Assembly (NCBI GenBank): GCA_036874045.1
Contig: CM072335.1
Span: 17,925,501-17,989,500 of the forward strand
Origin: Cymodocea nodosa
Taxonomy: Eukaryota > Streptophyta > Magnoliopsida > Alismatales > Cymodoceaceae
Reading direction: 5' to 3'
Length of the DNA stretch: 64,000 nucleotides
Positions within the stretch are counted from its first letter, which is position 1, and every line of letters begins with the position of its first letter. Below the pieces are notes generated by a model. It was not told where the DNA came from. It made no database searches and was given only the letters and a program-made list of their open reading frames with translations. This document shows positions 1,101 to 61,914 of the stretch, one piece after another. Made by a program: the position numbers and the translations under genes.

Positions 1101-1103
1101 AAT

Positions 1104-8545: not shown

Positions 8546-8625
8546 ATTCTCAATTACAAAAGAAAACACACAACACTCTGGCTATTAAAACAAAACAGCT
8601 CTAACAGTTACTTATATTAATTCAA

Positions 8626-10781: not shown

Positions 10782-10816
10782 GTATTGTTAATATTTCATT
10801 AGAGGAAAATGTAAAA

Positions 10817-12006: not shown

Positions 12007-12244
12007 AGTAAGTAATCCTTATTAACAATATATGTAAATTATAAGAAAAGAAGAAGAAAAAAAAATATTATATAGAAAACTCTAAATATAAACAAAAATA
12101 GTTTTTATTATTTTCCTCAAGTTGGGGAGTTATAGGTTAACTCAATGAACTTAGTCCATCGAGTTACCACTTAACTTCACAAGCTTGTTAGTAGATTAAG
12201 TAGTAATTTTTGTTTTTATGCTACTAAATACAGAATCACAGTAA

Positions 12245-15165: not shown

Positions 15166-15310
15166 AATTTGGGTTTAGTTTCCTTAGAATCCAAGATGAA
15201 TCGATGTTTCAAAAGGATGCAGATTTATAAAGGAAAGAAATAGTCCTAGCACTTTAGAAAGACCATTTTTAGCTAGATCATAGTAGGTTTGGTAAGGGAC
15301 TAGCAAAATG

Positions 15311-15325
15311 TAAGTATGACGGAAG
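15311..15325 (+). other. Polypurine tract
   Basis: AAGTATGACGGAAG directly before TGTTTAGAATG. The better-kept version at 59906-59920 reads GGTACGGGGGAAG. This is the expected primer for plus-strand synthesis. Confidence 0.6.
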
Positions 15326-16919
15326 TGTTTAGAATGAAATTGTGCATAATATTAGTCATTAATGAATGGTTAATTGTATTATATTTAGCTTATTATATGA
15401 GAATTAAGTCATTATGTTACAATTATACAATTGTGAGCCTTAATTAAAGAATATGCATAATTTCAAGGAATTAATGGTTAATTAAGTATCAGTTATAAAT
15501 GAATTAGAAATTACTTCTTTTACATATCAAGTGTTAAATGTTATATAAATATTTGTTTTACTAAACTACAGAACTGAATGAGTTCGTTGAGTTAAGCTTA
15601 ACTCAATGAGGTTGGTCTATTGAGTTACAGTTAAACCAATAGAGTAAGTTTGTTGAGTTATACTAACTCCACGGATCCACAGACCAATTATTTTCTAATA
15701 TTTGATTGTGAGTAGTTGTAGGAAATTTGAAGGAAACCACATTGCATGAATCACACCATGATCTAAAACGTGGAATGAAGAAGTAATCACCATCGTTGAT
15801 GCGAAGGAAGGAAATCTAACTACTGATTTTAGTAGAAGTAGTTAATACTAAAGTAAATATAAAAGGAAAAGAAAAAAAGAACGAAAGAAGGTGGGAGAAT
15901 CGTGCTAACTGTAGAAAGCATTAGATGTTCCTTGAGCTCCCACCAATTCCACCATCCATCGAAGGTCTGTGAGGATACTTTCTAGATGTCGAGTTGATTT
16001 CAAGCCAAATATGGTGACTAACAACCATTGTGAGGAGTGATCGCATCATAGGAAAGTAGGATATTTTCACCAAGCATTGAATCATTTCTCAAGTGATAGT
16101 TAAGCTTCTAGCCTTAGTTTCGGGTTGATGCCGCTATGTTGAAGAGGAGGTCAACTTATAAAAGTCTAGGTTCATAATCTAGTAGGGAAAGGAGCACTTC
16201 ACAGTAAGTGGTTAAGTTTTTAGTGGTGTAATCATGTCACATATAGTGACAGAAGTTTTTTTACTATCAATAGAGAATTTTACCTTTCATCACTCACTTA
16301 TTTGAATGAAGGAAACAAAACGAACCTCATTATCTGTGTTTTATGCTTATCTAATCTATTCTGTATCATTTGTGTTGTTAGTAGTGTTGAATGTTTTGTG
16401 TTTATTTCATTTTAGTTATAGAAAATCGTATTACTGATTGTTTAAACTAGTTAATATAAATCTCTGAAATCTTGATTTAAGAATCTACTATTTGGATGTA
16501 TTGAATGCTAGATTTGATCAATGATGAATGTAATATGAAATAGCGTTCAAAAGCTTAATTAATGTTATTTGTAATATATAGAAACACCTAATGAATGGTT
16601 GTATTATTCTGCAAACTACGATTTTAATTATAAGTTACCTGAGAGCTTGTTGAGTTAACCATAACTTCATAAGGTAATTTTGTTGAGTTAACCATAACTC
16701 TACAAATTAGGTCCATTGAGTTAACTGTAAATCAACGAAATGAGCATATTGTGAATATACACCATACCTTGGTTATGAAAATTTATAGAGTAAAGTGATT
16801 TTGATAGTTCCCTATGAGTTCTACTTGTACTTGCACACTTATACAATAGATGCTATGCACTTGTAATTCATGAAAATTACTTGTTACTTATAAAAAAATA
16901 CATTTAAGTAAATAAGACA
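15326..16919 (+). repeat. Athila-family LTR, shorter and diverged copy
   Basis: TGTTTAGAATG start, TATA-like box at 15855, an antisense-ORF segment around 15950-16080, hairpins of the GTTGAGTTA type at 15585-15670 and 16640-16735, and the end near AAGACA at 16919. At about 1.6 kb it is shorter than the other copies (about 2.0 kb). It lacks most of the ATCCGATGC hairpins and the CACGTG-bounded segment. Confidence 0.75.
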
Positions 16920-39447: not shown

Positions 39448-40894
39448 AATAGAAGGATTACTAAGTCAAGCAATGCCTAACCCTTTAAATAGAAGTGTTA
39501 ATGAAATTGATACCTCTAGTGGGAGGGACCTTGTATGAATATCACCTAATTACTACTAAATAAATGTAGGTAGTAAAGAAGAAAAATGAAAAAAGGAAAC
39601 AAAAGAGTTTTTTTTTTTTTCTAGGTTCGTTAAGTTATTGCATAACTCAACGAAAGTAGTACAGTTTGAATTAATTTCTATTTTTGTGTATTTGATGAAT
39701 ACAGACTCACCATATATTGGAAATTATGGATATGCCAATGGACGTGTTGAGAGAAGTAATGGGCTATTTGCCAACTAAGGACTTATGTAGATTATGTTGT
39801 TTTTCCAAGTAGATTAAAAAATGCATAGTTGAAGTTACTACCAAAGATTGCGATGACCAACATAGGCAATAGATTCATATGGAAAACATTTGGATGCAGT
39901 ACTATAAGCTAGACTATCTAAGTGTAGATGAAACTTTAGGAATTCCACCTAATGCATTAGGAGGAGTAGAATATATTCTAAGAAGTGATATAGGACTAAT
40001 CATCCATAGGATGAGAATGAGGTATAATGTGCTTTCATCGAACATCTATATTAGAAATCCTATCATTGAAGAGGAGCTAAACATTGGAAGGCTAAGTATC
40101 TTTGAGAGTGCCATTGAAAACTCAAGTGTAGCACTAACAGTTGCTAATTGGGAATCAAAAATACCATATAAGTTATTTTATTGGAGACCAATTGGAAGTT
40201 TGGACGAAGGTATGTGCTTGAATGTTTACAATTTTGAGAAAAAATGTTGGCACAAGAGTATAGTAGAGTATTTTGGAGAAAGAGCAATAGCTAACAAGAC
40301 TCATGTGATACTTCATGGTTATGTTTACTTAGTTTCAGATAGTTCTATTGCATTCAAGTCCAATCTCTACATAGTTAGCATTACTATTTATGATGAGATG
40401 ATAAAAATTTTACCTATACCAAAAAGTGTAGTTGAACCACCATCCACTCATTATGACAAGGTCGAACTAAATTTATGGTGTAATGATTTTGATTATCCTA
40501 CATTGTTCCTAGTAAGATGATGGGATGATGAAATGAAATTTCAAATATGGATATTTGAAGATTTGGATGATTGGAAGTGGAAACACCTAGATCATTGTGA
40601 TCAAGTAGAGGAATTGTTACTACATTCCATTTCATTAATGATAATACTCTTGTATTTAGTGCTGATAACATACTTCAAGTTTATAATTTGAGAAAACAAG
40701 TAAAGTTAGTAGAAGTGGAATTAAGAGTAAGAAGGTATATGCTTAAATGTTTTGCATGGACAGATACATTCATTCCATATGTCAATACTTTCTAGTCATG
40801 TACTTAGAATGTATCTTTGTATTTGTGCTTATTGTGAATGTATTACTGTTTGCATTTATGTTTGAATAGTGAAAGAAAAAAAAACATGTACACT
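39448..40894 (+). mobile_element. 3' part of a second gag/F-box element
   Basis: 39448-39540 matches the gag end of the first such element (11920-12005), so both share the gag, short linker, F-box order. The tail between F-box and LTR is only about 90 bases, lacking the long module found at 13380-15310. Confidence 0.65.
39717..40807 (+). pseudogene. F-box protein gene captured by the retroelement, copy 2
   Basis: Same protein as copies 1 and 3. F-box MDVLREVMGYLPTKDLCRLCC, then a TAG where the others have Gln or Glu, a damaged segment to 39880, then an open run of 213 codons (39879-40520): VDETLGIPPNALGGVEYI, RNPIIEEEL, PYKLFYWRP, THVILHGYVYLV, ILPIPKSVVEPPS. A TGA at 40518 replaces the Trp of the WWD motif; further frame changes follow, and the end aligns at 40807. 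Like copy 1 its aligned start is TTG (39717), with ATG three codons later. Confidence 0.8.
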
Positions 40895-42881
40895 TGTTTA
40901 GAATGAAAAAGTGCATAATATTAAGGGTTAAATAATGGTTAATTACATAATATTTAGCTTATCATATAAGAATTAAGCCATTATGTTATAATTGCACTGT
41001 TATATGCTTTAATGAAAGAATCTACATAATTTCAAGGAATTAATGTTAATTTAGTACATTTCTGAACTGTTATTTAGCTGTGAAATTCTTAAGTATCCAA
41101 ATTTTCTGTTATTTCAGAGAGTTATATGGCATGTATTAGACAGTTATGTTTTTAATGATAGAAGAATATTTTATTATTTCCTGGAGTACACGTGTTGAAA
41201 CCTTAATGCATGACTTAAGTGGATTTTCGGTAAGTTATTTGTTAACTACCCAAAATGCATCTAGGCATCGGATAGCTAGGTTTGTAAGTGTCTAAAATAT
41301 CTGAAGTTGTTAAGTTAGAATTATACACGTGTTGAATTTAAATGCTTTAGTATATCACGTGAGATGCACATGTTTAACTCGTCAAGTTAGCATAATTGTA
41401 CGCATTGAGTTACATGAATACACACTAAGGTAATGCATTATGTTAGCAGCTTATTTTTTTATTGCATGTGTTTTATAGTTAAATCAACGAAGTAAGTCCA
41501 TTGAGTTACCTGTAACTCCACAGACCATTTATTTTCTAATATGCCACTATAGCAGTTACATAAACAAGATATTCCAAGGAAAACCACGATTGCACGTATC
41601 ACGCAGGAATTCACTCATGGAAGGAAGAAGAAATCACCTTCGTTGATATGAATGAAGGAAATCTAACCGATCATCTAAGCAGAAGTAGTTACTACTGAAG
41701 AAATATAAAAGAAGAGGAGAAAAAATGAAGAAAGTGTGGTTGGCCATGCGTGCAGAGGTGGAAGACCGCACTAACTGCAAGCAGCATCAGAAGTTCACTG
41801 AAGCTCCACACCATTACCAAAATCACCAACCATTGGAGGCCTGTGAGGATACTTTCTTGATGTCGGGTCGATTTTGAGCCAAACACGGTGCTTGACAACC
41901 ACTGTGAGGAGTGATTGTGTCGCAGGAAGGGGAGCCATTTTCTCCAAGCACCGACTCATATCTCAGGAGATTGTAAAGCTTCTAGCCATGGTTTCGGGTT
42001 GATGCCAATATGTTGAAAAGGAGATCATCTTGCAATTTTGGACTTGCGATTCTACAGGGAGAGGAGGCAGGATTGTAAGTGATTAAGTTTTCAGTGGTGT
42101 AATCGCGTCGCATGTAGTGACAGAAGTTTTTACTGTCGATAGAGATTTTTACATTTCACCTTTCATTCATCTTCATGAACATATCAAAAAAAAAAAACCC
42201 AAAATAACAACTTATTTGTGTTTATATTTAGTATTTAAGTGTTGTATTGTTTGTTTTGTATTGTGAGTAATGTTATCATTGTCAGTATTGTGAATGTTTT
42301 ATGTTTGTTTGATTCAGAAAATAGAAAATAGTTTTACAATTTACTCAAATTGATTTGTTCTAGATACTTAAAGATTTTAATGGTTACCATTTGAAATATC
42401 TGAATGTTAGTGTTGCTTAATGATAAATCTAATATTAACTAGCATTAAAGAGCTTAATTGACGTTATTTACAATCTGTGGAACTGCCCAATGGTTGGCCA
42501 AATTCCTTTGTAAATAGTAGTATTTAACTGGAAAGATAGGCTTGTGGAGTTAACTTAAGTCCACGAGGTTACTCCGTTGAGTTAGCCATAACTCCACGAA
42601 CTTGGTCCATTGTGTTAACTGTAACTCAACGGAGTACTTACTAAACACATAAACTCCATTATAAAAATCAGAACAGTACACAATTCTTACTCAATCTTTG
42701 TGGGATCGACCTGTACTTGCACACAAATACAATATACACTGTGCACTTGCAGTTAAAATACAAGTTGGAATTAATATCTAATTTATGTGAAAGGTTGTTA
42801 GTTTACTTCTAAAAGTAATTATTGATATAAGCATAAAGACAAATTAAACAAGTAAAAACAGAAGTTAACAAACCCCAACCA
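40895..42881 (+). repeat. 5' LTR with the SIRE-like CACGTG segment
   Basis: TGTTTAGAATG to CCCCAACCA, 1,987 bases. The segment at 41335-41465, bounded by CACGTGTT-like and CATGTGTT-like repeats, is absent from the LTRs at 8720 and 21961 and homologous to SIRE LTR sequence. TATA-like box at 41701. Hairpins at 41490-41520 and 42545-42640. Confidence 0.85.
41701..41712 (+). promoter_or_regulatory. LTR TATA box
   Basis: AAATATAAAAGA; equivalent to the boxes at 48752, 55439 and 60728 in the sister LTRs. Confidence 0.5.
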
Positions 42882-42888
42882 AGTTTTC

Positions 42889-42906
42889 TGGCACCGTTGC
42901 TAGGGA
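42889..42906 (+). other. tRNA-Asp primer-binding site
   Basis: TGGCACCGTTGCTAGGGA, three mismatches from the perfect site at 8644-8627. A single unit here, with no tandem copies. Confidence 0.8.
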
Positions 42907-42964
42907 TTGAGAAGCTAAGCAACTGTGAGTGCTGTTTTGTTTTAATAGCAAGAGGAGTGTTGTA

Positions 42965-44080
42965 TGTTTTCTTCTATAATTGAGAATAAGGCATATGCTT
43001 ATGCTTAAAGATTTCTGAAACATGTAGTTAGTATATGTAAATTCAGCAATATGGAAGGTCACGACATTTCTAATTGTTTGAAACAAGATGGTTGCAAATG
43101 GTTAGATCACATGAACAACAAATGAATTATCTTCACTATAATAGATCTGAGTATGAGAATCCTATGGTTTACCCAACTAATGGTCAGCTAAGAATGTGTA
43201 ATATGTTGAGAGACAAGGAAATTTGAGATGAGTATGATAGACTAGAGCGTAGCTTAAAGCAATACACGGACAAACTAGAATAATATATGTGTCAGCAACA
43301 AGAAGTCAACCAATTAAACTATAGAGAAGAATATTCAGAACCTAAAATTGATACCATTTACGAAATTGAAAAAACCATAATGAAAATTGATCAAAAATTG
43401 AATGCAATGAGATTAGATGATTTGGAAAGAAAACTAAAAGCATTGAATGAATTTACAATGAAATTACAAGTTATACAATAAGAAAACACAAATGAAAATT
43501 TTAATGTTACAGATCTACATAATTTGCAAGACATACAAACAAAAGAAAATACCAATGCGATAGAATTTAAAGAATGCAATTTAAAACTAAAAATAGTTGA
43601 AGATCATAATCACGAAAAGGATATACAAGAACATCATGAAAAGTAACAAAAATCTGGAAGATGTATGTATAACATTAAGATCTGGAACTAATATACCACC
43701 AAGAATTCAAAACGAAAATAATATGAAGGTGGATAAGAGCAAAAATCAAAATGATAATGAAAATGTAATATCTAAAAATATAGAAATCAATGAAGAAAAT
43801 CTGAATCTGAAAATGAGACTAAAAATGATCAAACAAATCAAATGAAAGAAAAAGAATCTTTTAAATCATAATCATTAGCACCCTATCTTGAAAGATTACA
43901 ACAAACATTTCCTGAAAAATAAGAAAAAATTAAAGAAATTTTTGAAAAAGTACAAGTTAACATTCCTTTGTTAGACTTATTACATAAAATGCCAACTTGT
44001 GCTAAATTTCTTAAGGATTGGTGTACTAAGAAAAGAGAGTGAAAAGTTTTAAGGAAAGTCTTTTTAGCTGAGCAAAGTAG
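42965..44080 (+). pseudogene. gag: Gag C-terminal part without the capsid core, second copy
   Basis: Counterpart of 7497-8545. The zinc-knuckle-like segment reads CKFSNMEGHDISNC, so here the second Cys is Ser while the last Cys is kept, the reverse of the other copy. The open pieces 43287-43481 and 43597-43845 carry the KIDQKLNAMRLDDLERKLKA coiled segment; a TAA at 43480 and frameshifts break it. Here too the capsid core is missing between primer site and knuckle. Confidence 0.7.
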
Positions 44081-47000
44081 TTCCTTATTTTTGCCACAAA
44101 TTCCTAAAAAGTTATCTGATCCTAGAATTCCTATTATATCATGCACTATAGGAAATACCATTCTAGAAAGATCCTTAATAGACCTAGGTGCAGATATAAA
44201 TGTTATGCCAAGTGATATATTTGCATCCTTAGGATTAGAAGGCTTAATTCCTACTAGAAATGTTATTCAATTAGCTGATAGAAGTATAAGATACCCTAAA
44301 GGAAAAATAGAGGATGTCTTAATTAAAATCAAAAACTTCATATATCCTATTGATATTGTAATTTTGGATTCCCAACAAATTAATCATAAAAATCGTGATA
44401 CATCTTTAATCTTGGGAAGGCCATTCTTAGCAACATCAGAGGTTGTTATAAATTATAAAACTGGAGTAATGAAGTTAGCATATGGTAATGAAGATACTCA
44501 ATTAAACATTTTCAAGTTAGAAAAGTTTGAGGAGTTAGAAATGTCCTTACATTCTATAGACTTTTTAGAGGATGAAGGAGATATACTAGATGATGTGATT
44601 CAAGAAGAATTAAATAGGCAACTAAATTCTGAAACTTTAGAAGAAAGTGAAAGCATAAATATAGGAGATCAGGAAGAAATTAATTTAGAAAATGATGATG
44701 TTCAATTAGGAGCTCTAGCTTCTAATGGGCAACATTTAGAATTAAAACATTTACCTCCTGAATTAATCTATATATTTCTGGAAGAAAAAGGAACATGCCC
44801 AATCACTATTGCTTTAGATTTAAAAGAGGATCAAATTGCTAAATTAAAAGATGTAGTAAAAACTTATAAAGAGGCAATAGGATGGACTTTGACTGATATA
44901 AAAGGGTTAAGTGCAACTTTATGTTGTCACCACATATACTTAGAAGAGAATGCTAAACCTGTTAGAATTCCTAAGAGGAGATTAAATCCAAAACTTAAAG
45001 AAGTAGTCAAGAAGGAAATAGTGAAATGGTTAGATAATGACATAATTTATCCGATTTCTAATAGTCTATGGGTTAGTCCAATCCATGTAGTTCCCAAGAA
45101 ATCAAGATTAACAGTTATTAGGAATGAAAGTCAAGACTTGATACCTACTAGAATTCAATCAGGTAGGAGAGTGTGTATAGACTATAGAAAGTTGAATGTT
45201 GTGACTAGGAAAAATCATTTTCCCTTACCTTTTATAGATCAAATGTTAGAGAAATTAGCAAGGCAAGAATATTTTTGTTTCCTAGATGGGTATTCAGGAT
45301 ATAACCAAGTCCCAGTAGCATTAGATGATCAAGAGAAAACAACTTTCACATGTCCTAATGGAACTTATGCCTTTAGACAATACCATTCGGATTATGCAAT
45401 GCACCAGCCACCTCTCAAAGGTGTATGTAGGGCATATTCACTAGAATGACTGAAGATTTTTTAGAAATATTTATGGATGATTTTACTATTTATGGAACTT
45501 CATATGAAGTGTGTTTAAACAATTTAGACCAAGTATTAAAACGCTGTGTGGAAAAAAGTCTGGTTCTAAATTGGGAAAAATGTTACTTCATGGTTAAATA
45601 AGGAATAGTCTTGGGACATGTTGTTTCAAAGAAAGGGGTGAAAGTAGATAAAGCTAAAATAGAAGTAATTTCTAATCTACTAGAACCTAAATTAGTAAAA
45701 GATATTAGATCATTTCTAGGACATGCTGGATTTTATAGAAGATTTATTAAAGACTTTAGCAAAATAGCTAGACCTTTAACTAATCTATTAAAAGATGTCC
45801 CATTCAACTTTGATAAAAATTGCAAAGAAGCATTTTTCAAGATTAAAACGAGCTTAATTTCAACTCCTATAATTCAAGCACCTGATTGGAGCCATCTATT
45901 TGAATTAATGTGTGATGCATCTCATTTTGTTATAGGAGCAATGTTGGGACAGAAGATAGAAAAATCTCCTAGAGTGATTCATTATGCAAGCAAAACCTAA
46001 ATGATGCTCAAGTTAATTATACAACTATTGAAAAAGAGCTGTTAGCTGTTGTGTTTGCCTTAGAAAAGTTTAGATCATATCTGATTGGAGCTAAAGCGAT
46101 AGTATACACAGATCATTCAGCTTTAAAACACCTAATAGCAAAGAAAGAGACTAAACCTAGATTGATTTGGTTGATATTATTATTACAAGAATTTGATCTA
46201 GAAATTAAAGATAAAAAAGGTTGTGAGAATGTAGTAGCAGATCATTTATCAAGATTACAAATAAAAAAGTCAAATATTGAAATTAAGGATAATTTTCCTG
46301 ATGAACAATTAATGACCATCAAAACAATGCCTTGGTATGCAGACATAGTTAATTACTTAGTTACTAGTTTAACACCTAAGGATTGGAATAGACAGGATAA
46401 GAAATTGTTCTTTTCAAGAGTAAAATATTACTATTGAGAAGACCCATACTTATTTAAGAAATGTCTTAATCTGGTTTTAAGGATGTGTGTTCCAGAAACT
46501 GAATATCAGAGCATATTGTCTTTCTACCATGACCAAGCATGTGGAGGGTATTTTGGTTCAGGGAAAACTGCTGCTAAAATTTTGCAATGTGGTTTTTATT
46601 AGCCAACACTATTCAAAGATGCTCATAAATATTGCTTAAGTTGTTTAAAATGTCAACAAATAGGAAGAATATCAAAGAGGAATATGATGCCTCTTAATCC
46701 TATTGTTGAGGTTGAAATCTTTGATGTGTGGGGAATAGATTTTATTGGTCTATTTCCTATGTCTAATCAATTTAATTATATATTGTTAGGGGTGGATTAT
46801 GTGTCTAAATGGATAGAAGCTATTCCTACAAAAACTAATGACAACAAAGTGGTAATACATTTTATAAAAACTAATATAATTGCCAGATTTGGAATACATA
46901 AAGCTATTATTAGTGATAGAGGAACTCATTTCTGTAATAAAAGTTTTGAAGCCTTAACGAAGAAATATGGAGTAAATCACAAAATTGCAACATCATATCA

Positions 47001-47634
47001 TCCGCAAACAAGTGGATAAGTAGAAAGTGCAAACAAACAAATTAAGTTAATCTTAGAAAAAGTAGTAAATCCTACTAGAACAGATTGGGCTAATAGAGTA
47101 ATAGATGTACTTTGGGCTTATAGAACTGCTTATAAGACAAACTTAGGTATGTCACCTTTTAGGCTAGTATATGGAAAAAGTTGTCATTTACCAACTGAAA
47201 TTGAACATAAAGCTTATTGGGCATTAAAAACTCCGAACACTAATTTAAACCAAGCTACTGAGAATAAAAAAATACAATTGATTGAATTAGAAGAATTTAG
47301 GAATGAAGCTTATTCGAAAACTGTAAGAGAAAAAGAGAAAATGAAATTTTGGCATGACAAGAAAATTATTCCAAAAACCTTTGAAGTAGGACAAGAAGTA
47401 TATCTTTACATGACTAGACTCCATAACCATCTAGGAAAATTAAGATCTAGATGGGCAGGACCTTATATAATTCAAAATATTTATTCCTATAGAGTTATTG
47501 AAATTGAAAATCATAAAAATTAGAATATATTTAAAGTAAATGGACAAAGACTTAGACTTATTTTGAAGATACCAAAAAGTTTTTTTGGAATTATAGAAGA
47601 AGTAAGAGTAGAGGACTACTCGAGCTTTCCTTAG
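44081..47634 (+). pseudogene. pol: Athila-type pol, plus-strand copy
   Basis: Protease DLGADINVMP (about 44200), reverse transcriptase [10 protein letters not shown] and FMDDFT (about 45475), RNase H LMCDASHFVIG and TDHSALKHL, integrase zinc finger with one His replaced by Tyr (GGYFG), catalytic segments [17 protein letters not shown] and VESANKQ, and the GPY-type end (RWAGPYII). Single-base losses near 45380 and 46000 shift the frame; stops at 46435 (TGA) and 46600 (TAG) replace Trp and those at 45599 and 47017 fall in conserved positions. It is more damaged than the minus-strand pol. Confidence 0.88.
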
Positions 47635-47792
47635 TAAAAAATTATCTAAGAGTTTGTTTTGTAAAAAAAAAAACCTTATTTTGAATATAGTCACGGTTCA
47701 GCCGAAAGGAATTATCGGTTTTACTGAAACATATTTTAAAAGAAAAAAATTGTTGTGGTTCAACCGATAGGATCCATCGGTCTAACCGAAAC

Positions 47793-49936: not shown

Positions 49937-50004
49937 TGGCGATGCTACTTATGAATTAAACAAGTTCTCTAGTGCTGCCTAAAGCTGAACCAAACAAGAC
50001 GTCA
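49937..50004 (+). repeat. Two degenerate primer-site-like units
   Basis: AAGTTTTCTGGCGATGCTAC and AAGTTCTCTAGTGCTGCC, about 34 bases apart, comparable to the tandem units at 8626-8719. The second runs into the ORF sequence. Confidence 0.55.
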
Positions 50005-52182
50005 AAATTTCTTAAAGATTCGAAAGAATGGCACACAAGGTAGAAGATCAGAAATACGATAGGGGAAAAAAAGCTACAAAAGGTAGAATCTGACCTTTTT
50101 TACTAGAGGAAAGTGTTAGTAGATTTATGTATACAAATACCTTAGATTATGGAAATGAGAATTAGAGTAGCTATAGAAGTTGCTGTAAATAGAGAAAGAC
50201 GAATCAAGCCAAATAACGAAGTTGCCCTAGAATTGATCCAACGTAAGTCCCGACTCTGTTTCAAAACACGCATAGGTAGACGGGCTCAGTGGACAATCTG
50301 GGAGCAACAAAAGAAAGGAAATGAAGAACAGGCAACTGAAGAACAAGAGGAACCGATTGTTGAAAGACTTGTCCCTAAGGAACAGCAGCCCAGACCTTTA
50401 GTTCCACCACCAAGGCCGTTAGAAAGAGCAGCAATTTTGGGGCCTTCTACTGAGGAAGAATTAAGAGAATTTCAAGAACTGGTTCAAATTAGAAAAGACC
50501 AAGGAGAACCATAAGAGTTGGTAATAGCTATAGCACATCTAGTGTTTGATGCACATTGCAAAAAGAGGGCTACAGAAAAGTTGAAGGCCCAATACAAAAT
50601 TAAAGTGGAACAACATCAAGAAGCCACTGCCATACCTACTGTAAGAGGAGTTGAAGCTGGTCCTTTGAGACTAGCAATTATAGAAAAAGTTAAATAGGAA
50701 GAGCCAGTACCTATGGCTCGAGGGCCTATAGAGCCTATTTTTGTAGATTTAATCTTAGAAGAAGAAGACCAAACACAATTAATTAGAAGAAGGAAAGGAA
50801 AAGAGATAGTGCTTGAACATTAAGAAGAGATTAAATATGAGATTTAAATCTTAGTAGGGCCTGTAAAGCTGATTTTTGTAAACCTATTATCTGATTCTGA
50901 GGAGGAACAGGAGCAACAACAGCAAGAGCAAAGAGAAGAAGAAAAACAGGCTGAAACTAATCTACAGCTTGTACAAATAGAAGAAATAGAAATTAGGGCA
51001 GAAGCTGACTTGCCCGTAACTCCATCCCAATCTGCCACAGAATCAGAAAGAACAGTGACAATTTAGATTGGTAGTCAAGAGGAAGAAGAAAAAGAAGAAA
51101 CTGAACAAGAAGCTGAACAAGAGCATATTGAACAAGAAAGAAATGACTCGACATATTCCACTAAAGAGCAAGAAACTCTTCAACAAATTTTGGAAAGAAT
51201 TCATGACAGAGTGGAGAGCTCTACCAGCTCACTACCACAGACAAAAGTAGAAGCAAAAATGTAGGAATCTCTAGAGCAATTTCAACCAATTCAAGTTCAG
51301 CACATGGAAGAAGTTCAAGAACAAACCCCTCTAGAGCAACAAATTCAAATTCCTAACCTGACTGAAGCAATAGTTTTGAATGAAGTACACTTTTGGAGTT
51401 AGGAAGCATATAATAAATATCAAGAGATTTAGAGTTATGATATCATATATAGTAGACTAGTAAATTGGGACGGGATGCAAGAAATTAAGGATTTATTTGA
51501 GTTCCAAGGTCTATTGTAGTTTATTTCTCAAGAGAGAGGGCATGCAGTATATGAGAATCTAGTGCCCTGCTTCTATGCAAATTTAAGAGAAAGAGAAAGT
51601 GGATTAATTTCGAACATGGAGCAAGCTGATGTACAGATAATACTAGAGCTTCTCCACAACATTTTAGGATTGAAGAATGAAGGAATAGAAATTCTAGAAA
51701 GCACAACTGCAGTCGAGTGGACAGAGCAAATAATAAAGGATTGTTTAGCTATCAATCTTGGTGTGCCATTATTAAATAGACCGAAGCACTTAAATTGTAA
51801 AGAATGATAGCTAACATTTTAATTAAGAATGTCTACCAACGACAAGGCCATGATATAGAACTGAGTCAATTTGTCAAATGGGCCACGTATTCAGATTAAT
51901 TGGTTTGCAATTTTTATCTCCAAGCTGAGAGCAATAAAGAAGAAATTATTTTATTTAGATCTGATTCCACTACTGATGGTGGACAGTATTGATTTCACGA
52001 AATGAGCATCCAAAATGATAAGATCAAGAACCATTTCAGTGAAAGAGTACAGAAATTATGCTGCTACAGAGATTGGTGAACCTTCTAGAGGAATTATAGG
52101 AGCTATAGAAAGGATAAACCAATTAGAGCAACAATTAGAAAAACTCCAGAAGGAAGTAGATGAACTTAGGAAGAAAGATTAA
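50005..52182 (+). pseudogene. Env-position ORF with PF20167-like domain, plus-strand copy
   Basis: Colinear with 3275-1104 on the other strand. The N-terminal part (to 51060) has the open piece 50149-50514 (MRIRVAIEVAVNRERRIKPN). The domain reads LFEFQGLL, CFYANLRE, LELLHNILGLKNEG (51500-51680), ILIKNVYQRQGHDIEL (51815) and INWFAIFISKL. The C-terminal coiled coil INQLEQQLEKLQKEVDELR ends in TAA at 52180. Multiple stops (for example 50515, 50695, 51264) and a small deletion around 51890 relative to the minus-strand copy. Function unknown. Confidence 0.68.
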
Positions 52183-53133
52183 ATTGTATTGTTCATCTAC
52201 TTGTACTTATATTTGTATGAAAATATCTGATTGATTGTAATGTAAAATATTCTTATAAATGAATGTATGTTTTTTAGATGTTTTTGCATTCGTGTTTGAG
52301 AATGATGTAATGGATGAACTATCTTGAATATTATATAACTGTTTGAACAAGATGCAAGATTGTTTAAAAGATTTACAAATTTTATGAATGACAAGATTAA
52401 ATGCAAGATAACTAGCTAATGCCTGAAAATATCTACATGCTGCAAAGTAAAATGTAAATTCTACATAACATGAAATGAATTGCAAGTTAAATATACATAT
52501 CATGATCAGATTCAAATGAGTTTTATTTAGAAAACTACATTAATGACATGTATTTAACTTTATTTAAATTGAAAAAATGCAGGAGAAAAAAAATATAAAA
52601 GTTAATACGAGGAGTAAGTTTTAGAAATTTGCTAAGTGTTAACTCAACGAAGTAAGTTCGTTGAGTTAACCTTAACTCCACGAGGTTAATATTATTATAT
52701 AAGGTCACTCTATTGAGTTATCTATAAACTCAACGAAGTTAGTCTGTAGAGTTAGCAACAGTAACTGAAGCTAGTCCATTGAGTTAACTATAACTCAACG
52801 AGATTAGTTCGTGGATTAAGCTAAATGGTTATTCTTTTAGCCATGAACGAAACTTCATGGGTTTAGCAGTTACTGAAATTTGAAATTAGAAGTGGAACAC
52901 GTATCTATAAAAATAGGAACCACACTACACATTAATAGACACGTTCTTGCAATGAGATTCATTTGCTTTATGAACGTGCATTATAAATATAGAACAGAAT
53001 GTTATTTACTAGTTACTAGCACTTTTGGAAGAAAAGGAAATTCGTTGGGGAACTGGAAGGAGAAGCAGCTGATTCAACTTCATCCGTTAACAACTATTTA
53101 CTGAATATAAAGTTTCAGCTTGAATCACAATAG
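52183..53133 (+). other. Leader between downstream ORF and F-box gene
   Basis: Matches 1100-190 on the minus strand. A cluster of GTTGAGTTA and GTGGAGTTA hairpins lies at 52630-52830. A 74-codon ORF at 52880-53104 (64 codons in the sister copy) is partly shared and may be a chance upstream ORF. No other gene seen. Confidence 0.55.
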
Positions 53134-54273
53134 ATGGAATCGATGAAATTACCACTAGATGCACTGAGGGAAGTACTGAGTAACCTATCAGCTAAAGATC
53201 TATGCAAATTGTGTTGTGTATCAAAGGAAATCAAAAACTGTGTAAGAGAAAAATATTTTCATGGACTACAAGCTGCAAAAATGACTAAGATTAGAGACGA
53301 ATTTTTATGGAAGTCATTTAATCGTAGTTCAATCAGCTATGAATATCTGAATATGGAAGAAACTGTTGGAATTCCACCCAATGCATTAGAAGGAATAAAT
53401 CATATTATGGGGATAGATGAAGGATTAATTATATACAGAACCAAACCAATGTATGCAATTCTATTACCCAACATTTTGATTAGAAATCCTATCACAAGAG
53501 AAGAATGGAATATAAGAAGGCCTAATAGATTGGAAGTACCAACTGAAAATTGTGGGTTAGCTTTAATATTTTCTAATAAAAATTTGACTATTCCTAAAAA
53601 ATTATATTACTAAAGACCAACTAGAAATTGGGAAGAAGATTTATGCTTAAGTGTGTATAATTTTCTAAATAGATATTGGACTGAAAATACTATGATATAT
53701 CTAGGACAGAAAGCATTAATTAATAGCATGCATGTCATACTTGATGGATATATATATGTAGTCACAGATATATCAGTTGCATTTAGGTCTGATTTATACA
53801 TAGTAAGCATAAACAATTATGATGATGATTTTATAGAAATATTACCTATACCGAGTGATATAGCTAAACCACCATCTATAGAACATGATAAAATTCAATT
53901 AGGAATGTGGTATAATGAATATGATGATCCTACTTTATGTTTGATAAGATGGTGGGATGAATTGAGGAAATTTCAAATATGGATTATAAAAGACCTAAAT
54001 GAATGGAAGTGGGAAAAGGAATATATTGAAATAGATGTAGAAATTGAAACAGCAACATTATCTTGGAATAGAAGAGGATCCCTTTCTGCATTTCATTTCA
54101 TTAATGGAAATACACTTATATTTAGTATTGATAACATACTACAAGTTTACAAGCTAAAAAGGAAAACAGATTGCATTAAAATAGAATTAATAGCAAGAAG
54201 AATTATGCCTAAAAAGTTTGCATGGACTGACACATTTATTCTATTTGTTACTATTTTTCAATCATGTTCTTAA
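53134..54273 (+). pseudogene. F-box protein gene captured by the retroelement, copy 3 (nearly intact)
   Basis: 380 codons from an ATG to TAA with a single interruption, TAA at 53611 where both other copies have Trp. The F-box MKLPLDALREVLSNLSAKDLCKLCC (residues about 4-50) is a credible SKP1-binding domain. The F-box-associated region follows: RNPITREEWNI, VYNFLNRYW, VILDGYIYVV, VAFRSDLYI, IEILPIPS, WWDELRKFQIWIIKDLNEWKW, and a C-terminal repeat FHFINGNTLIFSIDNILQVYKL. Usual F-box/FBA proteins have 350-420 residues, so this is full length. No intron. It is followed within about 100 bases by LTR sequence. It could be functional if the stop were a sequencing artefact or recently gained. Confidence 0.85.
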
Positions 54274-54374: not shown

Positions 54375-54614
54375 GAAAAAAATAAACTCTAATATAAAAA
54401 TCAAAATTGTACATAATTCTTACTCAATCTCTATGGGATCGACCTGTACTTGCACACAAATACAATATACACTGTGCACTTGTAGTTAAAATACAAATTG
54501 GAATTAATACCTAATTTATGTGAAAGGTTGTTAGTTTATTTCTAAAAGTAATTATTGATATAAGCATAAAGATAAATTAAAGAAGTAAAAATAGAAGTTA
54601 ACAAACCCCAACCA
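54375..54614 (+). repeat. Athila-family LTR, last 240 bases only
   Basis: Matches the end of the other LTRs, to CCCCAACCA. Followed by AGTTTTCTAGTGCC, the start of a primer site split by the next LTR. Confidence 0.75.
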
Positions 54615-54628
54615 AGTTTTCTAGTGCC

Positions 54629-56630
54629 TGTTTAGAATGAAAAAGTGCATATTATTAAGGGTTAAATGATGGTTAATTGCATAATATTTAGCTTATCATA
54701 TAAAAATTAAGTCATTATGTTATAATTGCACTGTTATATGCTTTAATGAAAGAATCTGCATAATTTCAGGGAATTAAGGTTAATTTAGTACATTTCTTAA
54801 CTGTTGGTGAATTGCAGGCTGTGAAATTCTTAAGTATCCGAATTTTCTATTATTTCGGAGAGTTATATTGCATGTACCAGATAGTTATGTTTTTAACGAT
54901 AGAAGAATATTTTATTATTTCCTGGAGTACACGTTGAAACCTTAATGCATGACTTAAGTGGATTTTCGGTAAGTTATCTGTTAACTATCTGAAATGCATT
55001 TGGGCATCGGATAGTTAGGTTCATAAGTGTTTGAAATATCTAAACTCATTAAGTTAGAATTATGCATGTGTTGAATTTAAATGCTTTAGTATATCACGTG
55101 AGATGCACATGTTTAACTCGTTAAGTTAGCATAACTATACGCGTCGAGTTACATGAATACACACTAAGGTAACGCATTATATTAGTAGCTTATTTCTTTA
55201 TTACACGTGTTTTATAGTTAAATCAGCGAAGTAAGTCTATTGAGTTATCTGCAACTCTACGGACCATTTATTTTCTAATATGCCACTATAGCATTACAGA
55301 AATAAGACATTTGATGGAAAACCACGATTGCATGTATCACACAGGAATTCACTCGTAGAAGGAAGAAGAAATCACCATCGTTGATATGAATGAAGGAAAT
55401 CCAACTGATCATCTAAGTAGAAGCAGTTACTACTGAAGAAATATAAAAGAAGAGGACAAAAAATGAAGAAATGGTGGTTGACAGTGTATGCAGAGGTGGA
55501 CCATGCTAACTGCAGGCAGCATTAGAAGTTCACTGAAGCTCCACACCGTCACCAAAATCACCAACACCACCATAATCACCAACCATCAGAGGTCTATGAG
55601 GATACTTTCTTGATGTCGAGTCGATTTCGAGCCAAACACGGTGCTTGACAACCACTGTGAGGAGTGATCGTGTCGCAGGAAGGTAAGCCATTTTCACCAA
55701 GCATCGACTCATATCTTAGGAGATTGTAAAGCTTCTAGCCTTGGTTTTGGGTTGATGCCACTATGTTGAAGAGGAGATCATCTTGCAATTCTGGACTCGC
55801 GATTCTATAGGGAGAGGAGGCAGGATTGTAAGTGATTAAGTTTTCAGTGGTGTAATCGCGTCGCATGTAGTGACGGAAGTTTTTACTGTCGATAGAGATT
55901 TTTACATTTCACCTTTCATTCATCTTCATGAACATATCAAAAAAAAATACCAAAAACAACTTATCTGTGTTTATATTTAGTATTTAAGTGTTGTATTGTT
56001 TGTTTTGTATCGTGAGTAATGTTATCATTGTCAGTATTATGAATGTTTTATGTTTGTTTAATTTAGAAACTAGAAAATAGTTTTACAGTTTACTGAAATT
56101 GATTCGTTCCAGATACTTAAAGATTTTAATGGTTATTGTTTGAAATATCTAAATGTTAGTGTTGCTTAATGATAAATCTAATATTAACTAGCATTAAAGA
56201 GCTTAATTGACGTTATTTACAATCTGTGGAACCGCCCAATGGTTGGCCAAATTCCTTTGTAAATAGTAGTATTTAACTGGAAAGATAGGCTTGTGGAGTT
56301 AACTTAAGTCCACGAGGTTAGTCCATTGAGATAGCCATAACTCCACGAACTTGGTCTGTTGTGTTAACTGTAACTCAACGGAGTACTTACTGAACACATA
56401 AACTCCAATATAAAAATCAGAACAGTACACAATTCTTACTCAATCTTTGTGGGATCGACCTGTACTTGCACATAAATACAATATACACTGTGCACTTGCA
56501 GTTAAAATACAAATTGGAATTAATATCTAATTTGTGTGAAAGGTTGTTAGTTTACTTCTAAAAGTAATTATTGATATAAGCATAAAGACAAATTAAACAA
56601 GTAAAAATAGAAGTTAACAAACCTGTAACA
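54629..56630 (+). mobile_element. Solo Athila-family LTR inserted in a primer-binding site
   Basis: TGTTTAGAATG to TGTAACA. GTGCC before (54624-54628) and GCACC after (56631-56635) look like a 5-bp duplication with two transitions. Removing it restores AAGTTTTCTAGTGCC followed by GTTGCTAGAG, exactly a primer site in register. TATA-like box at 55439; SIRE-like segment at 55060-55210. Confidence 0.75.
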
Positions 56631-56635
56631 GCACC

Positions 56636-57065
56636 GTTGCTAGAGAAAAAAAAAACAAAATATCAATCTAGTTTGTTGGTATCTGTTCTAGGAAACCAAC
56701 TGGCTTACTTGTAAGCCACCAAAGACATAGGAGCCTGGGTTCCACACAAGACACTGATTTAACAAGTTATGTTTTGTTATTTTATTATATATTCTACTTT
56801 TATGTGTGAATGAAAAGTTTTTCAGAATCAAAAAATTAGAAGATATGAAGGAGACACAAAAGGACAAGGTATGTAATTGATTACTTATCCTGAATTTACA
56901 TTTAAACTCAGTTCGTGGAGTTATTCATTAACTCAACGAATTAAGTTCGTTGAGTTAGGTGCTAAGTCAATGAAATAATATTCATGCCTGCTATAATTAC
57001 TGTATTTATCGTAAAATCTTTTACATTGAGGACAATGCAAAATGTAGGTATGGGCGGGAGGTAAT
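56636..57065 (+). other. Tail, Athila-like part, second copy
   Basis: Matches 13480-13910: shared phrase TAGTTTGTTGGTATCTGTT and the ATTGAGGACAATGCAAAATG motif at about 57020. Hairpins at 56915-56975. Non-coding. It follows the primer site directly, so gag, pol and F-box are deleted in this element. Confidence 0.6.
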
Positions 57066-58611
57066 TGTAGGACCATATGGCTACACAAGAGGGGGGTGAA
57101 TTGTGTTTTTCAATATTTTCGAATATAATTGAAACTTTAAAACTCAAAAACAGTCGAGACATTGTTTTCATAAAATCATTTTTATTCAAGGTTTCAATTA
57201 CAATATATAATTCAATTCTCCTTAGAAATTGTAGGTGCAATTATATCTCGATACCATGTATCATCTAAACAATTTCATAACTACAAACAGAGAAAACTAA
57301 TTTGCGGAATTTAAAACATTTCTCCCTATTTGAGATCTTTCTTCTTCTTCTTCTTCTCTTTCTTCTTCAACAATTCTTCAGTGACGACTATCTTGTCTTT
57401 TTATGCTTCACCGAATTTGCTTTCTTCTGATACTTTAAATCTTTAGTGACGTAAATCTTACCATTTTATGCTTCATTGAATTTTCTTTCACTTGAGAGAT
57501 TTTCCCCAAAGAGGTGTTTTTGATCCCTAAAATGATTTTTCGTTTGATGTGCAGGGATAATTTGATCAACGAGAATTCTATGTCTTTTATACTGTATCTT
57601 CATTTCATGCATATCCTCCACGTTTAATCACTACTAGTTTTCCACTTCTTCACATCTTTTCTTTTTCCTTCGTCGAAATACACACGTTCTGACCCACGCT
57701 TACATTTCGAATTTTTTTTAATCATCAATCCTAGATCTCTGAAAAATTTCCTATAAAATATACTTTCTCGTCCAAAATTTTTCATCAAATATAATAAGTC
57801 GTTACTTTAATGTTAACTAAACGAGTAACACAAGTATATATATAATTTAACGTTTCTAACTTAGCGAGTTCCTCATGTGCCAACTCACGTGACAAGTATT
57901 ATAGCTAACTCGATGAACTATCTCCGTGGTGTTACGCTAACTCAACGAACCATCTCCATTGTGTTACGATAACTCAACGAACCAATAATAAACAAATGTT
58001 TTTATAATAAGAAGTTTACCACATGCAAAAATAATAACTTAAGTTTATAACACTAACCTAACGAGTTGCCTTAGTGTTCAATATAGCAACTCAACGCATT
58101 TAGTTATGTTAACTTAATGAGTTAAACATGTGCACCTCACGTGATACAATATAACATTCGTAACTTATAATTTCACCACGTGTATAACACTAACTTAACG
58201 AGTTTGTCTCCTCTTTTACTCACTAACTTAACGAGTGCTCACGTGACCTATTTTAACCTTTATGTCTCTAACTTAACGAGTTCTCACGTGATCTCTATAC
58301 AAACAAAACTCTAACTTAACGAATTGTCTAAACATGCACTATTCATGATATAGAAAATATAACTTTAAAACATACCATGCTTTTCAATAAAAACACATGT
58401 TAACTTAACATTTAGTTAAATGAGAAATTAATACAATGAAACGACTAGTTATTAACTTAGTATAATTTTAGATCTAATACAAACAAGTATTTATATCAGT
58501 AAGCTTTTTCTGTATTAATTAATGATTTTAATTTCCTTTCACAAGCCATAGTAATTGAGCAAATATGATTAATTTCATTTAGCACACATCATCAAAACAA
58601 AATATTGAACA
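57066..58611 (-). mobile_element. Solo SIRE-family LTR
   Basis: TGTAGGACCATATGG to TTGAACA, with GTAAT on both sides (57061-57065 and 58612-58616), a perfect 5-bp target duplication. Same family as 24777-26356, same orientation. Confidence 0.9.
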
Positions 58612-58616
58612 GTAAT

Positions 58617-59905
58617 TAAAGTAATAGCCATGTAATTTTGTTAATTAGAAGAATTAGAATGGTACTACAAAAGTTCTATGGAAATTGAAAATTTTTTTTT
58701 TATGAATTTACTGTAGCTATCCAATAATTGAAATTGTAAAATTTGTAAGAACTGTAACTACTTGAATGTTATATAAGATGCTACAGAATTTTACTATTCA
58801 TACAAATCTAGATATAGTATCTATGTGTTTGCTGAATTTTATGAGTTTAACAGTTTCACAATTTTAAAAAGAAATCAGAATGCTTAACTGAAACTTAATA
58901 AATTATTTGAAATCTTGGAAGAGCTGAAATATTGATTTTTGGATTAAATGAAATACATATGATCAAGGATACATTTAATTTGATTGATTAAACTTGTAGA
59001 ATGATTTATGTGTAGATCTTATTAAACTACAGAAAAAGTATGAGCTTATTGATATGGATTCATATTTTTAGTAAATAATAGAAGCAGGACTATATGAGAT
59101 TTGTGTTTTATTACATCTATATTAATGAAATACACATATATATTGTGAAAAAAAAAGAAAAAAAATGAGAGAAAAGAAAAGGAAAAAAAAACGTTGAGAG
59201 TTTATTGACTTGTTTAATCACGAGCATTTTGTACTTGAGCAAATAGGTATGTAAGGATTATTGACCTAAAAAAGGACTCTTTAAATCTGGCAACCTAAGA
59301 TCCTGATTAAATCTGGGATTATTGACTGAAAGCTTGATACATGGGTACACTAGAAAGCTCTTGTATGATTCAAGCTTGTCAAACTAACTTTTAAAGTACA
59401 AATATGCATATACTGTTTTGAAAAGATACAAGTGTTTTGTGAAATATAGATATCTTTTGAATCAAGTATATTTTTTGTTATCTAAAATTACTGAAGTATG
59501 AATTTAGAATAGACTTTTGAAGTTTATCTGAGATATAATTCTTTATTCTACTTGTTTTAATCATATTGAATTGGATTGTGCTTTGATTCGTATGTAGCTG
59601 AAATTTATTTTGAAATTCATATTGGAAAATTCCGGATGACAGATGCTGAAAAGAAGAAAAAAATGATAATATAATTAACACCTATGTGATGCTAATATAT
59701 TTTGTATGTAATTTACATATGTTTTAAATATATTTACAGGTTGAAGAGGAGAAAACAACATTAAAACAGATTACTGAAAAATACAGAATATCTATATAGT
59801 AATCTAAATTATGTATTCTGAAGAAGAACGAAATGAAGAATTAATTCTAGTACTTTAGAAAGACCAACTAGTTAGATTTTAGTTTGCTAAGGGACTAGCA
59901 AAATT
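58617..59905 (+). repeat. Tail with SIRE-derived module, second Athila-side copy
   Basis: 58750-59790 matches 14059-15165 and the SIRE module at 29640-30690. Non-coding; A-rich gaps near 59150. Confidence 0.7.
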
Positions 59906-59920
59906 TAGGTACGGGGGAAG
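59906..59920 (+). other. Polypurine tract
   Basis: AGGTACGGGGGAAG immediately before TGTTTAGAATG; the clearest example in the window for this family. Confidence 0.8.
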
Positions 59921-61914
59921 TGTTTAGAATGAAAAAGTGCATAATATTAAGGGTTAAATGATAGTTAATTACATAATATTTAGCTTATCGTATAAGAATT
60001 AAGCCATTATGTTATAATTGCACTGTTATATGATTTAATGAAAGAATCTGCATAATTTCAGGGAATTAATGTTAATTTAGTACATTTTTGAACTATCGGT
60101 GAATTGCAGGTTGTGAAATTCTTAATATCCGAATTTTCTATTATTTCAAAGAGTTATATTACATTTATCGGATAGTTATGTTTTTAACGATAGTAGAATA
60201 TTTTATTATTTCCTGGAGTACACATGTTGAAACCTTAATACATGACTTAAGTGGATTTTCGATAAGTTATCTGTTAACTATCCGAAATGCATCTAGGCAT
60301 TGGATAGTTAGGTTCGTAAGTGTCCAAAATATCTGAACTTGTTAAGTTAGAATTATGCACGTGTTGAATTTAAATGCTTTAGTATATCACGTGAACATGT
60401 TTAACTCGTTAAGTTAGCATAATTGTATGCATTGAGTTACATGAATACACACTAAGGTAACGCATTATGTTAGCAGCTTATTTCTTTATTACACATGTTT
60501 TATAGTTAAATCAACGAAGTAAGTCCGTTGAGTTATCTGTAACTCCACGGACCATTTATTTTCTAATATGCCACTGTAGTAGTTACAGAAACAAGACATT
60601 CAAAGGAAAACCACGATTGCAGGTATCATGTAGGAATTCACTCATGGAAGGAAGAAGAAATCACCATCATTGATATGAATGAAGGAAATCCAACCAATCA
60701 TCTAAGTAGAAGAAGTTACTATTGAAGAAATATAAAAGAAGAGGAGAAAAAATGAAGAAAGTGTGGTTGACAGTGTGTGTAGAGGTGGAGGACCACACTA
60801 ACTGTAGGCAGCATCGAAAGTTCACTAAAGCTCCACACCATCACCAAAATTACCAACATCACTAACTATCGGAGGTCTGTGAGGATACTTTCTTGATGTC
60901 TGGTCGATTCTAAGCCAAACACGGTGCTTGACAACTACTGTGAGGAGTGATTGCGTCGCGGGAAGGGAAGCCATTTTCACCAAGCACAGAATCATATCTC
61001 AAGAGATCGTAAAGCTTCTAACCTTGGTTTCGGGTTGATGCCAGTATGTTGAAGAGGAGATCATCTTACAATTTTGGACTCGTGATTCTATAGGGAGAGG
61101 AGGCAAGATTGTAAGTGATTAAGTTTTCAATGATGTAATCGTGTCGCATGTAGTGACAGAAGTTTTTACTATTGATAGAGATTTTTACATTTCACTTTTC
61201 ATTCATCTTCATGAACATATCAAAACAAAAATACCAAAAACAATTTATTTGTGTTTATATTTAGTATTTAAGTGTTGTATTATTTGTTTTGTATCATGAG
61301 TAATACTATCATTGTCAATATTGTGAATGTTTTATGTTTGTTTGATTGAGAAAATAGAAAATAGTTTTACAGTTTACTGAAATTGATTCGTTCTAGATAC
61401 TTAAATATTTTAATGGTTACTATTTGAAGTATCTAAATGTTAGTGTTGCTTAATGATAAATCTAATATTAACTAGCATTAAGGAGCTTAATTGATGTTAT
61501 TTACAATCTGTGGAACTGCCCAATGGTTGGCCGAATTCCTTTGTAATTAACAGTATTAAACTGGAAAGATAGGCTCGCGGAGTTAACTTAAGTCCACAAG
61601 GTTTGTCCATTGAGTTAGCCATAACTCCATGAACTTGGTCCGTTGTGCTAACTATAACTCAATGGAGTGCTTACTGAACACATAAACTTCAATATAAAAA
61701 TCAAAATAGTGTACAATTCTTACTCAATCTCTGTGGGATCGACTTGTACTTGCACACAAATACAATATACACTATGCACTTGTAGTTAAAATACAAATTG
61801 GAATTAATATCTAATTTGTGTGAAAGGTTGTTAGTTTACTTCTAAAAGTAATTATTGATATAAGCATAAAGACAATTTAAACAAGTAAAAATAGAAGTTA
61901 ACAAACCGCAACCA
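59921..61914 (+). repeat. Athila-family 3' LTR
   Basis: 1,994 bases, TGTTTAGAATG to CCGCAACCA. SIRE-like segment at 60350-60495, TATA-like box at 60728, hairpins at 60505-60555 and 61570-61680. It is the 3' partner of the truncated LTR at 54375-54614 and ends inside copia sequence. Confidence 0.85.

Follow-up and report, generated by a model that had tools for sequence, protein, structure and literature searches.

The locus described here lies in a stretch of 64,000 nucleotides of the Cymodocea nodosa genome (contig CM072335.1, positions 17,925,501 to 17,989,500 of the forward strand), hereafter the window, in which three related F-box open reading frames (ORFs) are found at 12245-13379, 39717-40807 and 53134-54273; we refer to them as copies 1, 2 and 3. 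Their presence at these positions, intronless and in sense orientation, had been claimed in a first-pass annotation and was confirmed within the window. Copy 1 is 72.4% identical to copy 3 across 1,132 nt and 69.1% identical to copy 2 across 1,123 nt, copies 2 and 3 share 66.1% across 974 nt, and identities in this range (66-72%) far exceed chance. The F-box domain (PF00646) scores above its cut-off of 20.5 bits in copy 1 (36.5 bits), copy 3 (41.6) and P0001 (36.7). The protein had also been called FBA-like; in its C-terminal part FBA_1 reached 14.8 bits in the copy 3 piece against a cut-off of 21.1, the Pfam matches of P0001 included no FBA domain, and no Pfam domain at all rose above its cut-off. 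The description of the three ORFs as full-length did not hold, as every copy in the window is broken. Copy 1 is open for 270 codons from TTG at 12245; read in the frame of copy 3, it is then stopped by TGA (13055) and shifts frame close to the 3' end; copy 3 starts with ATG at 53134 and meets an in-frame TAA at 53611; copy 2 carries internal stops and deletions extending into the F-box. The features surrounding these ORFs are listed in Table 1.

Table 1. Parts of the elements that carry the F-box ORFs, by position in the window
Positions	Strand	Feature	Remarks
1..185	-	Start of GT-AG segment (GTATGT), minus-strand element	in L039, to the left of the window, gag, F-box, tail and 3' LTR follow
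186..3274	-	env-position region of minus-strand element	up to the splice donor
3863..8651	-	PBS, zinc-knuckle/linker ORF, RT-RNase H ORF and integrase ORF of minus-strand element	RT-RNase H 5199-7334; integrase 4257-5129
8652..10781	-	5' LTR of complete minus-strand element	flank AATAC
10782..12233	+	Capsid-type second gag, with the GT-AG segment's 3' part, copy-1 element	minus-strand insertion cuts at 10782
12234..13379	+	F-box copy 1	acceptor AG at 12232-12233
13496..16868	+	Tail and 3' LTR of copy-1 element	tail to 15325, PPT-like ..GACGGAAG; LTR from 15326
39717..40807	+	F-box copy 2, broken	3' part of gag-containing segment upstream at 39434-39698
40895..42881	+	LTR, probably 5' LTR of copy-3 element	no PPT before it; flank mismatches the flank after 61914
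42882..47671	+	Leader, zinc-knuckle/linker and pol of plus-strand element	capsid-type gag not recognised in the 5' part
49999..53122	+	env-position region adjoining copy 3 upstream	other copies have the splice donor at its end
53123..54273	+	F-box exon and ORF, copy 3, spliced state	junction 53122/53123, compared with unspliced copies
54376..56636	+	Nested LTR pieces between copy 3 and tail	to about 54628, an LTR 3' end and the PBS start; from 54629, a second LTR
56662..59920	+	3' tail of element	PPT at its end (..GGTACGGGGGAAG)
59921..61914	+	3' LTR	after tail and PPT

The elements of this family are arranged in the order 5' LTR, PBS, zinc-knuckle/linker plus pol, env-position region, GT-AG segment, F-box, tail, PPT and 3' LTR. 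A PBS-like TGGCGCCGTTGCCGGGGA follows the 5' LTR and the PPT lies directly before the 3' LTR. In the minus-strand element RT and RNase H stand upstream of the integrase, with RVT_1 and RT_RNaseH recognised in 5199-7334 and rve in 4257-5129. By its sequence features the family is a Ty3-type LTR retrotransposon, and an Athila-like one as far as features tell. Among the Pfam matches of three ORFs from the minus element's env region, the Athila ORF-1 domain PF03078 did not appear; according to PMC6317226 this domain is reported in only 16% of Athila elements.

The GT-AG segment, of approximately 1.6 kb, is bounded by GTATGT...AG and holds a capsid-type gag (PF03732, 27.3 bits against a cut-off of 24.1, in the homologous stretch of L041). 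The gag that had been noted before copy 1 is this second, capsid-type gag, and it is into this gag that the minus element inserted; the copy-1 element seems to be without an env region. The order env region, gag, F-box was observed in all six copies with all three in sight, namely the minus element together with L039, L040, L041, L042, L043/L017 and L044/L021. In L040 the env region is represented by its last 180 nt; L043/L017 and L044/L021 (copy-1 lineage) also show pol. The LTR begins exactly at the end of the tail in L040 and L041, and the tail of L042 is cut by another LTR piece. We had considered a separate, non-autonomous element type with gag followed by the F-box, and rejected it because gag lies between the env region and the F-box in these six copies. 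In the 5' part just before pol a zinc knuckle is present and a capsid gag was not recognisable by eye (42882-44090 on the plus strand and 7334-8651 on the minus strand of the window); in L045 and L054 the leader continues without such a gag insertion as far as the fetched sequence reaches. A zinc knuckle 5' of pol and a capsid-type gag downstream of the env region amount to an unusual split of gag.

The F-box had been described as always lying just before the tail and LTR. This applies to copy 1, which is followed by a tail with a PPT-like end and an LTR; it does not apply to copy 2, where the next LTR has no PPT before it and is probably the 5' LTR of another insertion, nor to copy 3, where LTR pieces come between F-box and tail. 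Within these pieces, one LTR (54629-56636) seems to have inserted into the PBS of an LTR of the same family (54376-54628), giving the succession LTR end, PBS start, new LTR, rest of PBS. That the plus-strand element between 40895 and 61914 is one clean insertion could not be shown, its outer flanks being ACACT and GTCAT.

The env-position regions of the minus element (190-3274) and the plus element (49999-53118) are 79% identical, and this match ends where the match to the F-box of copy 3 starts. At that end the minus element reads ..GACTG/GTATGT, which resembles a splice donor. Taking into consideration this donor-like end, the acceptor-like sequence before the F-box of copies 1 and 2, and the fusion of the two halves in copy 3, we predicted that an F-box should lie to the left of the window. 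The prediction was borne out: the 7.5 kb to the left (L039) contain an F-box with 88% identity to copy 3, followed by the tail and by an LTR that starts exactly where the tail ends. This LTR shares 92.6% identity with the one ending at 10781 (2,102 nt compared), the target duplication AATAC flanks both ends of the minus element, and a polypurine stretch precedes the 3' LTR. Between the two LTRs lie pol, the env-position region, the second gag, the F-box, the tail and the PPT. When the empty site was reconstructed from 120 nt of each flank, 13 other, distinct copies could be aligned with it across the junction (L002, L008, L011, L017/L043, L021/L044, L023, L031, L032, L033, L036, L037, L040/L027 and L041), and the second AATAC was surplus.

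Both ends of an element were sought by expected distance at four further loci; L031 gave both, and L035, L023 and L029 did not. At the expected distance the L031 element shows its 5' LTR and leader, and AAAGG/AAAGA, a 4-of-5 duplication, stand at its ends. Its joined flanks read through in one frame, which resembles a copia RT and has one stop 12 codons before the site. The element is 3'-truncated, the tail end, the PPT and most of the 3' LTR being deleted; what remains of the LTRs shows 94.5% identity in 403 nt, and the sequence examined covers the L031 locus and the two ends of the element. The F-box is thus, as claimed, an ORF resident in this family, a conclusion upheld by its position between the LTRs of a complete element with an AATAC duplication and within the 3'-truncated L031 element.

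These boundaries bear directly on the view that the copies are independent retrocopies of a host F-box gene and that the elements are merely nearby, each copy then sitting in a target duplication of its own. The ORF is intronless and most of the copies examined are broken, as retrocopies would be; however, the F-box lies inside LTRs with target duplications, it has the same neighbours wherever these are in sight, and its divergence is correlated with that of gag and tail. A fixed spacing is also seen on contig C1, for which 85 exact F-box sites and 87 exact donor sites were listed: 10 of these F-box sites have a donor site on their own strand 1.91-2.00 kb upstream, and three control placements gave 0. 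In the other 75 F-box sites of this contig the donor may be changed, spliced out or missing. Element boundaries and co-inheritance rule out independent host retrocopies as a general explanation, and we regard this reading as hardly credible.

The co-inheritance was measured by comparing distances among loci. F-box and gag distances were correlated with a Mantel r of 0.957 over 21 loci, F-box and tail distances with an r of 0.909 over 31 loci, and in both cases 0 of 999 permutations were as high; the sets comprised pieces of at least 900, 650 and 280 nt, with L009 and L040 excluded. The divergence of the F-box tracks that of its neighbouring gag and tail, in agreement with the earlier proposal that it moves with the elements.

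The proposed search of the genome for further copies was carried out on one genome of 374.6 Mb, in which the exact F-box 16-mer was found 1,065 times (539 and 526 on the two strands) and its reversed control 0 times. With the 270-aa protein of copy 1 as the query, 6,094 first-look candidates yielded at least 142 matches, own locus included, and all 142 that were scored had E < 1e-105. The scored matches lie on 20 of the 28 contigs (by eye), and 40 of the 142 rows have no stop in the matched 270-codon stretch (by eye); over the whole length, one of 35 aligned copies is free of in-frame stops. Loci were picked by similarity to the F-box (copy 1) or to the junction, not at random among elements, and the share of F-box-bearing elements cannot be read from them. 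A donor 17-mer was found 2,484 times with at most one mismatch (control 3), a number not comparable with the exact F-box 16-mer count. Judged by these sequence counts, the family has left about a thousand or more F-box copies in the genome, and F-box gene counts in plant genomes may be inflated by a high-copy element family of this kind. On contig C1 (28.9 Mb) the listed exact F-box 16-mer sites fall within 5.4-22.4 Mb, none of them near the ends. One locus, L005 (G000:C19:2183534-2186650), has an F-box ORF with an open frame of 452 codons and no match to copies 1-3, and is probably an ordinary host F-box gene.

Tandem F-box gene families occur at self-incompatibility loci, and the window could in the same way hold a cluster of host F-box genes among which elements inserted. 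Three sense copies within 42 kb, surroundings rich in retroelements and a dS near 1 between the copies would all suit such a cluster. The dispersion of the scored copies over most contigs and the recurrence of the 16-mer across the genome argue against it, as does the union of the F-box with gag, tail, PPT and LTR in a single unit. The host gene cluster, which we consider barely conceivable, is ruled out by this dispersion together with the LTR boundaries, the target duplications and the co-inheritance.

Selection on the F-box was examined on a tree of 35 copies, from which L002, L004, L007, L008, L021, L028 and L032 (truncated or disturbed) and L040 (the same place as L027) had been dropped; of the other loci, L009 is copy 1 itself and L005 a different F-box gene. 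Changes at codon positions 1+2 relative to position 3 gave a ratio of 0.36 on internal branches and 0.85 on terminal ones, the latter becoming 0.97 under HKY without copy 2. For gag the corresponding ratios are 0.31 and 1.06 (n=25), and for the noncoding tail the internal ratio is 0.87-1.20 in three arbitrary frames (n=33). From the low internal and high terminal ratios, which gag shares and the noncoding tail does not, we infer that the F-box was under selection during spread and neutral after insertion; that is, by the codon pattern, it is selected while the element moves and near-neutral after landing. Among 43 sequences (902 pairs, with truncated copies included and one place, L027/L040, present twice) the median pairwise omega is 0.52 at dS <0.15, falls to 0.27 at dS 0.8-1.1 and climbs again to 0.40 in the most distant bin (dS 1.1-2.0). 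Among copies 1-3 the pairwise dN/dS is 0.25-0.28, at dS 0.9-1.3; a dN/dS near 1 from the first insertion onwards, which would have spoken against a resident gene, is therefore not what the copies show.

The constraint differs along the protein, with internal ratios of 0.20 for residues 1-45, 0.29 for 46-160 and 0.49 for 161-379, against terminal ratios of 0.89, 1.07 and 0.95 for the same regions; mean amino-acid identity is near-equal across them (0.71, 0.68 and 0.70). Selection could in principle have acted on a role of the DNA or RNA, in packaging, splicing or spacing, and not on the protein, and the F-box exon does begin at a conserved splice acceptor. The constraint nevertheless tracks codon positions and is strongest in the F-box domain, a pattern that the noncoding tail lacks, and we consider a pure nucleic acid role very improbable.

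The same copies bear on the GT-AG segment. GTATGT is present in 6 of 6 aligned unspliced copies, and the 3' end of the segment shows a T-rich stretch and AG. In copies 1 and 2 an acceptor-like ..ACAG stands before AATCAC or ACTCAC, and in copy 3 the halves are fused. The AG before the F-box exon is kept in 31 of 38 usable loci (by eye; of the 41 rows, L007 and L028 were set aside as disturbed and L040 as a repeat of L027). Six of the seven losses read AA and the other TG. When the fused junction of copy 3 served as the query, 4,124 first-look candidates gave at least 40 matches (a lower bound), and all 40 that were scored cross the exact junction. The two contexts in which the first-pass annotation had placed the F-box, after gag and after the env-position ORF, are accordingly not two arrangements; they would correspond to the unspliced and spliced states of a single one.

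In a tree of 31 F-box copies, 6 of them fused, copy 3 pairs with the unfused L038 (94%) and L058 with the unfused L037 (98%). The minimum number of changes between the fused and unfused states is 4, and fused copies cluster beyond what shuffled labels give, 42 of 1,000 shuffles having as few changes or fewer; owing to this clustering, some fused lineages may have spread as such. Both deep lineages carry the GT-AG segment. If the gag-less junction were ancestral and the gag segment a later insertion, splicing would not be involved. Such a history would agree with the many gag-less copies (40/40 scored matches, of at least 40) and with their clustering in the tree. It would leave aside that the segment runs from GTATGT to a T-rich stretch with AG, that it is carried by both deep lineages, and that gag-less copies fall among gag-containing ones, including the two mixed pairs. 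Repeated retrotransposition of spliced RNA fits this pattern best; a later insertion of the segment is less likely, and we hold it to be improbable. According to the proposed mechanism, spliced genomic RNA would be packaged and reverse transcribed to give copies without the GT-AG segment, unspliced RNA would serve gag, and splicing would join the F-box ORF to an upstream exon for translation. The gag-containing segment would then be a natural record of reverse-transcribed spliced RNA.

Taken together, we put at roughly 85% the probability that the F-box is a sense ORF of a Ty3-type LTR family, located between the env-position region and the 3' LTR, inherited with the element, kept under purifying selection during spread, and preceded by a GT-AG gag segment that is exactly missing from many copies.

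Polerovirus P0, the analogy drawn in the first-pass annotation, is an F-box protein that acts on ARGONAUTE, and the present family resembles it in that an F-box protein is encoded by a selfish agent of plants; a silencing role in the present case would be hypothetical. LTR elements of bdelloid rotifers have reportedly captured extra ORFs as well (PMC5408684), in animals and with other ORFs.

In plants, LTR retrotransposons with additional sense ORFs (aORF/eORF) between pol and the 3' LTR are described in PMC7264820 and PMC6317226, according to which such ORFs are common and mostly of unknown origin and function. In PMC6317226 the eORF proteins of Ty3/gypsy elements fall into 314 groups, and 21.4% of eORF proteins contain a known domain. 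The ORF described here shares with the eORF-3'F type its same-sense position between pol and the 3' LTR and its conservation by selection. The reported eORFs are heterogeneous; here an F-box protein is encoded, with a capsid gag in a GT-AG segment before it. The word 'F-box' is absent from the main texts of the two papers. In PMC8764390, as far as its available text goes, an F-box 'LTR-gene' of Thlaspi is found among retroduplicated genes, with no conserved element ORF described; the corresponding text of PMC11728184 treats aORFs of sunflower Athila and Tekay, with no F-box, and that of PMC12786077 has no F-box either. At the level of titles and abstract openings the papers listed included no LTR element with a conserved F-box ORF, and the domain tables of PMC6317226 may name one. 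Given that the extra ORF of the present family is a recognisable ubiquitin-ligase adaptor selected along an element lineage, the role of such ORFs becomes directly testable.

The family shares with Athila-like (OTA) Ty3/gypsy elements the order RT-RNase H-integrase, an env-position region and long noncoding parts. It is unlike them in having an F-box after the env-position region and a 5' part without capsid gag, the likeness being one of features alone. A spliced env-like message of the Athila-like barley element Bagy2 is cited in PMC7264820, and PMC6317226 describes an intron in Ogre elements that is removed from some of their transcripts and not from others. As in Ogre, an intron of a plant LTR element, here deduced from genomic copies, would be spliced from part of the RNA; unlike in Ogre, it holds gag and sits between the env region and the F-box. 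The family is also comparable to LTR elements with captured host genes, such as maize Bs1 (cited in PMC7264820) and the rice and sorghum sets of PMC3726574, since a cellular-type gene is found inside LTRs. Transduced genes are described in PMC7264820 as present in one or a few copies, whereas the ORF reported here is high-copy and selected along the element lineage.

What the protein does can be approached through its domain, which on internal branches is the most constrained part, the C-terminal part being the least. In SCF ligases the F-box protein binds SKP1 and selects the target. By virtue of its F-box domain the element protein would dock on SKP1/ASK, and once docked it would direct an SCF ubiquitin ligase of the plant at some host protein by which the element is held in check. 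That it works via SKP1/ASK and the host SCF ligase seems to us somewhat probable from the sequence. The upkeep of such a gene during the spread of the family suggests that a retrotransposon may turn the host protein-disposal machinery to its own ends. By analogy, a silencing component would be the likeliest single target class, at odds that are low in absolute terms. A fuller proposal, equally by analogy and tentative, would be that the lineage encodes its own SCF adaptor, which disarms a host restriction or silencing factor in the manner of viral F-box effectors; that a splice around the relocated capsid gene switches the RNA between capsid (unspliced) and adaptor (spliced); and that, both forms being packaged, the genome fills with capsid-less, adaptor-carrying copies dependent on complete relatives.

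The F-box protein might instead act in the element's own cycle, for example in Gag/Pol turnover or nuclear import, and not against host defence. The F-box adjoins the capsid gene and the deduced splice would part them, which is in keeping with such a role; on the other side, PMC7264820 discusses accessory-like roles for additional ORFs, without settling them. We regard an own-cycle role as possible and doubtful. Searches for relatives of the protein gave 348 and 1,485 word-sharing candidates, none of them scoring, in a database that may hold few plant proteins; no PDB relative of the C-terminal part was found, and the AlphaFold model of the copy 1 ORF is poor (pLDDT 34.9). A host parent gene was not found among the genome matches, which are not separable from element copies.

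Several smaller features were observed along the window. At 53122-53136 a short upstream frame ending in ..ESQ-stop abuts the F-box ATG (TAGATG); TAGATG precedes the F-box in several other copies too, CAGATG in others and TAATTG in copy 1. A TATA-like motif, TATAAATA, is located at 52980-52992, about 135-140 nt before the splice-donor position; it is similar in most of 7 aligned copies, not in L043, and is possibly an internal promoter. Part of the tail of the copy-1 element (14064-15171, plus strand) is 75% identical to 29595-30691 on the minus strand, just after a copia-like RT/RNase H ORF, and an ORF at 37432-37974 (minus strand) resembles a PIF/Harbinger-type transposase. The LTR, the end of the env region, the GT-AG segment and the tail have in common a short motif, about 45 nt long, that contains inverted repeats resembling ACTCAACGAA.
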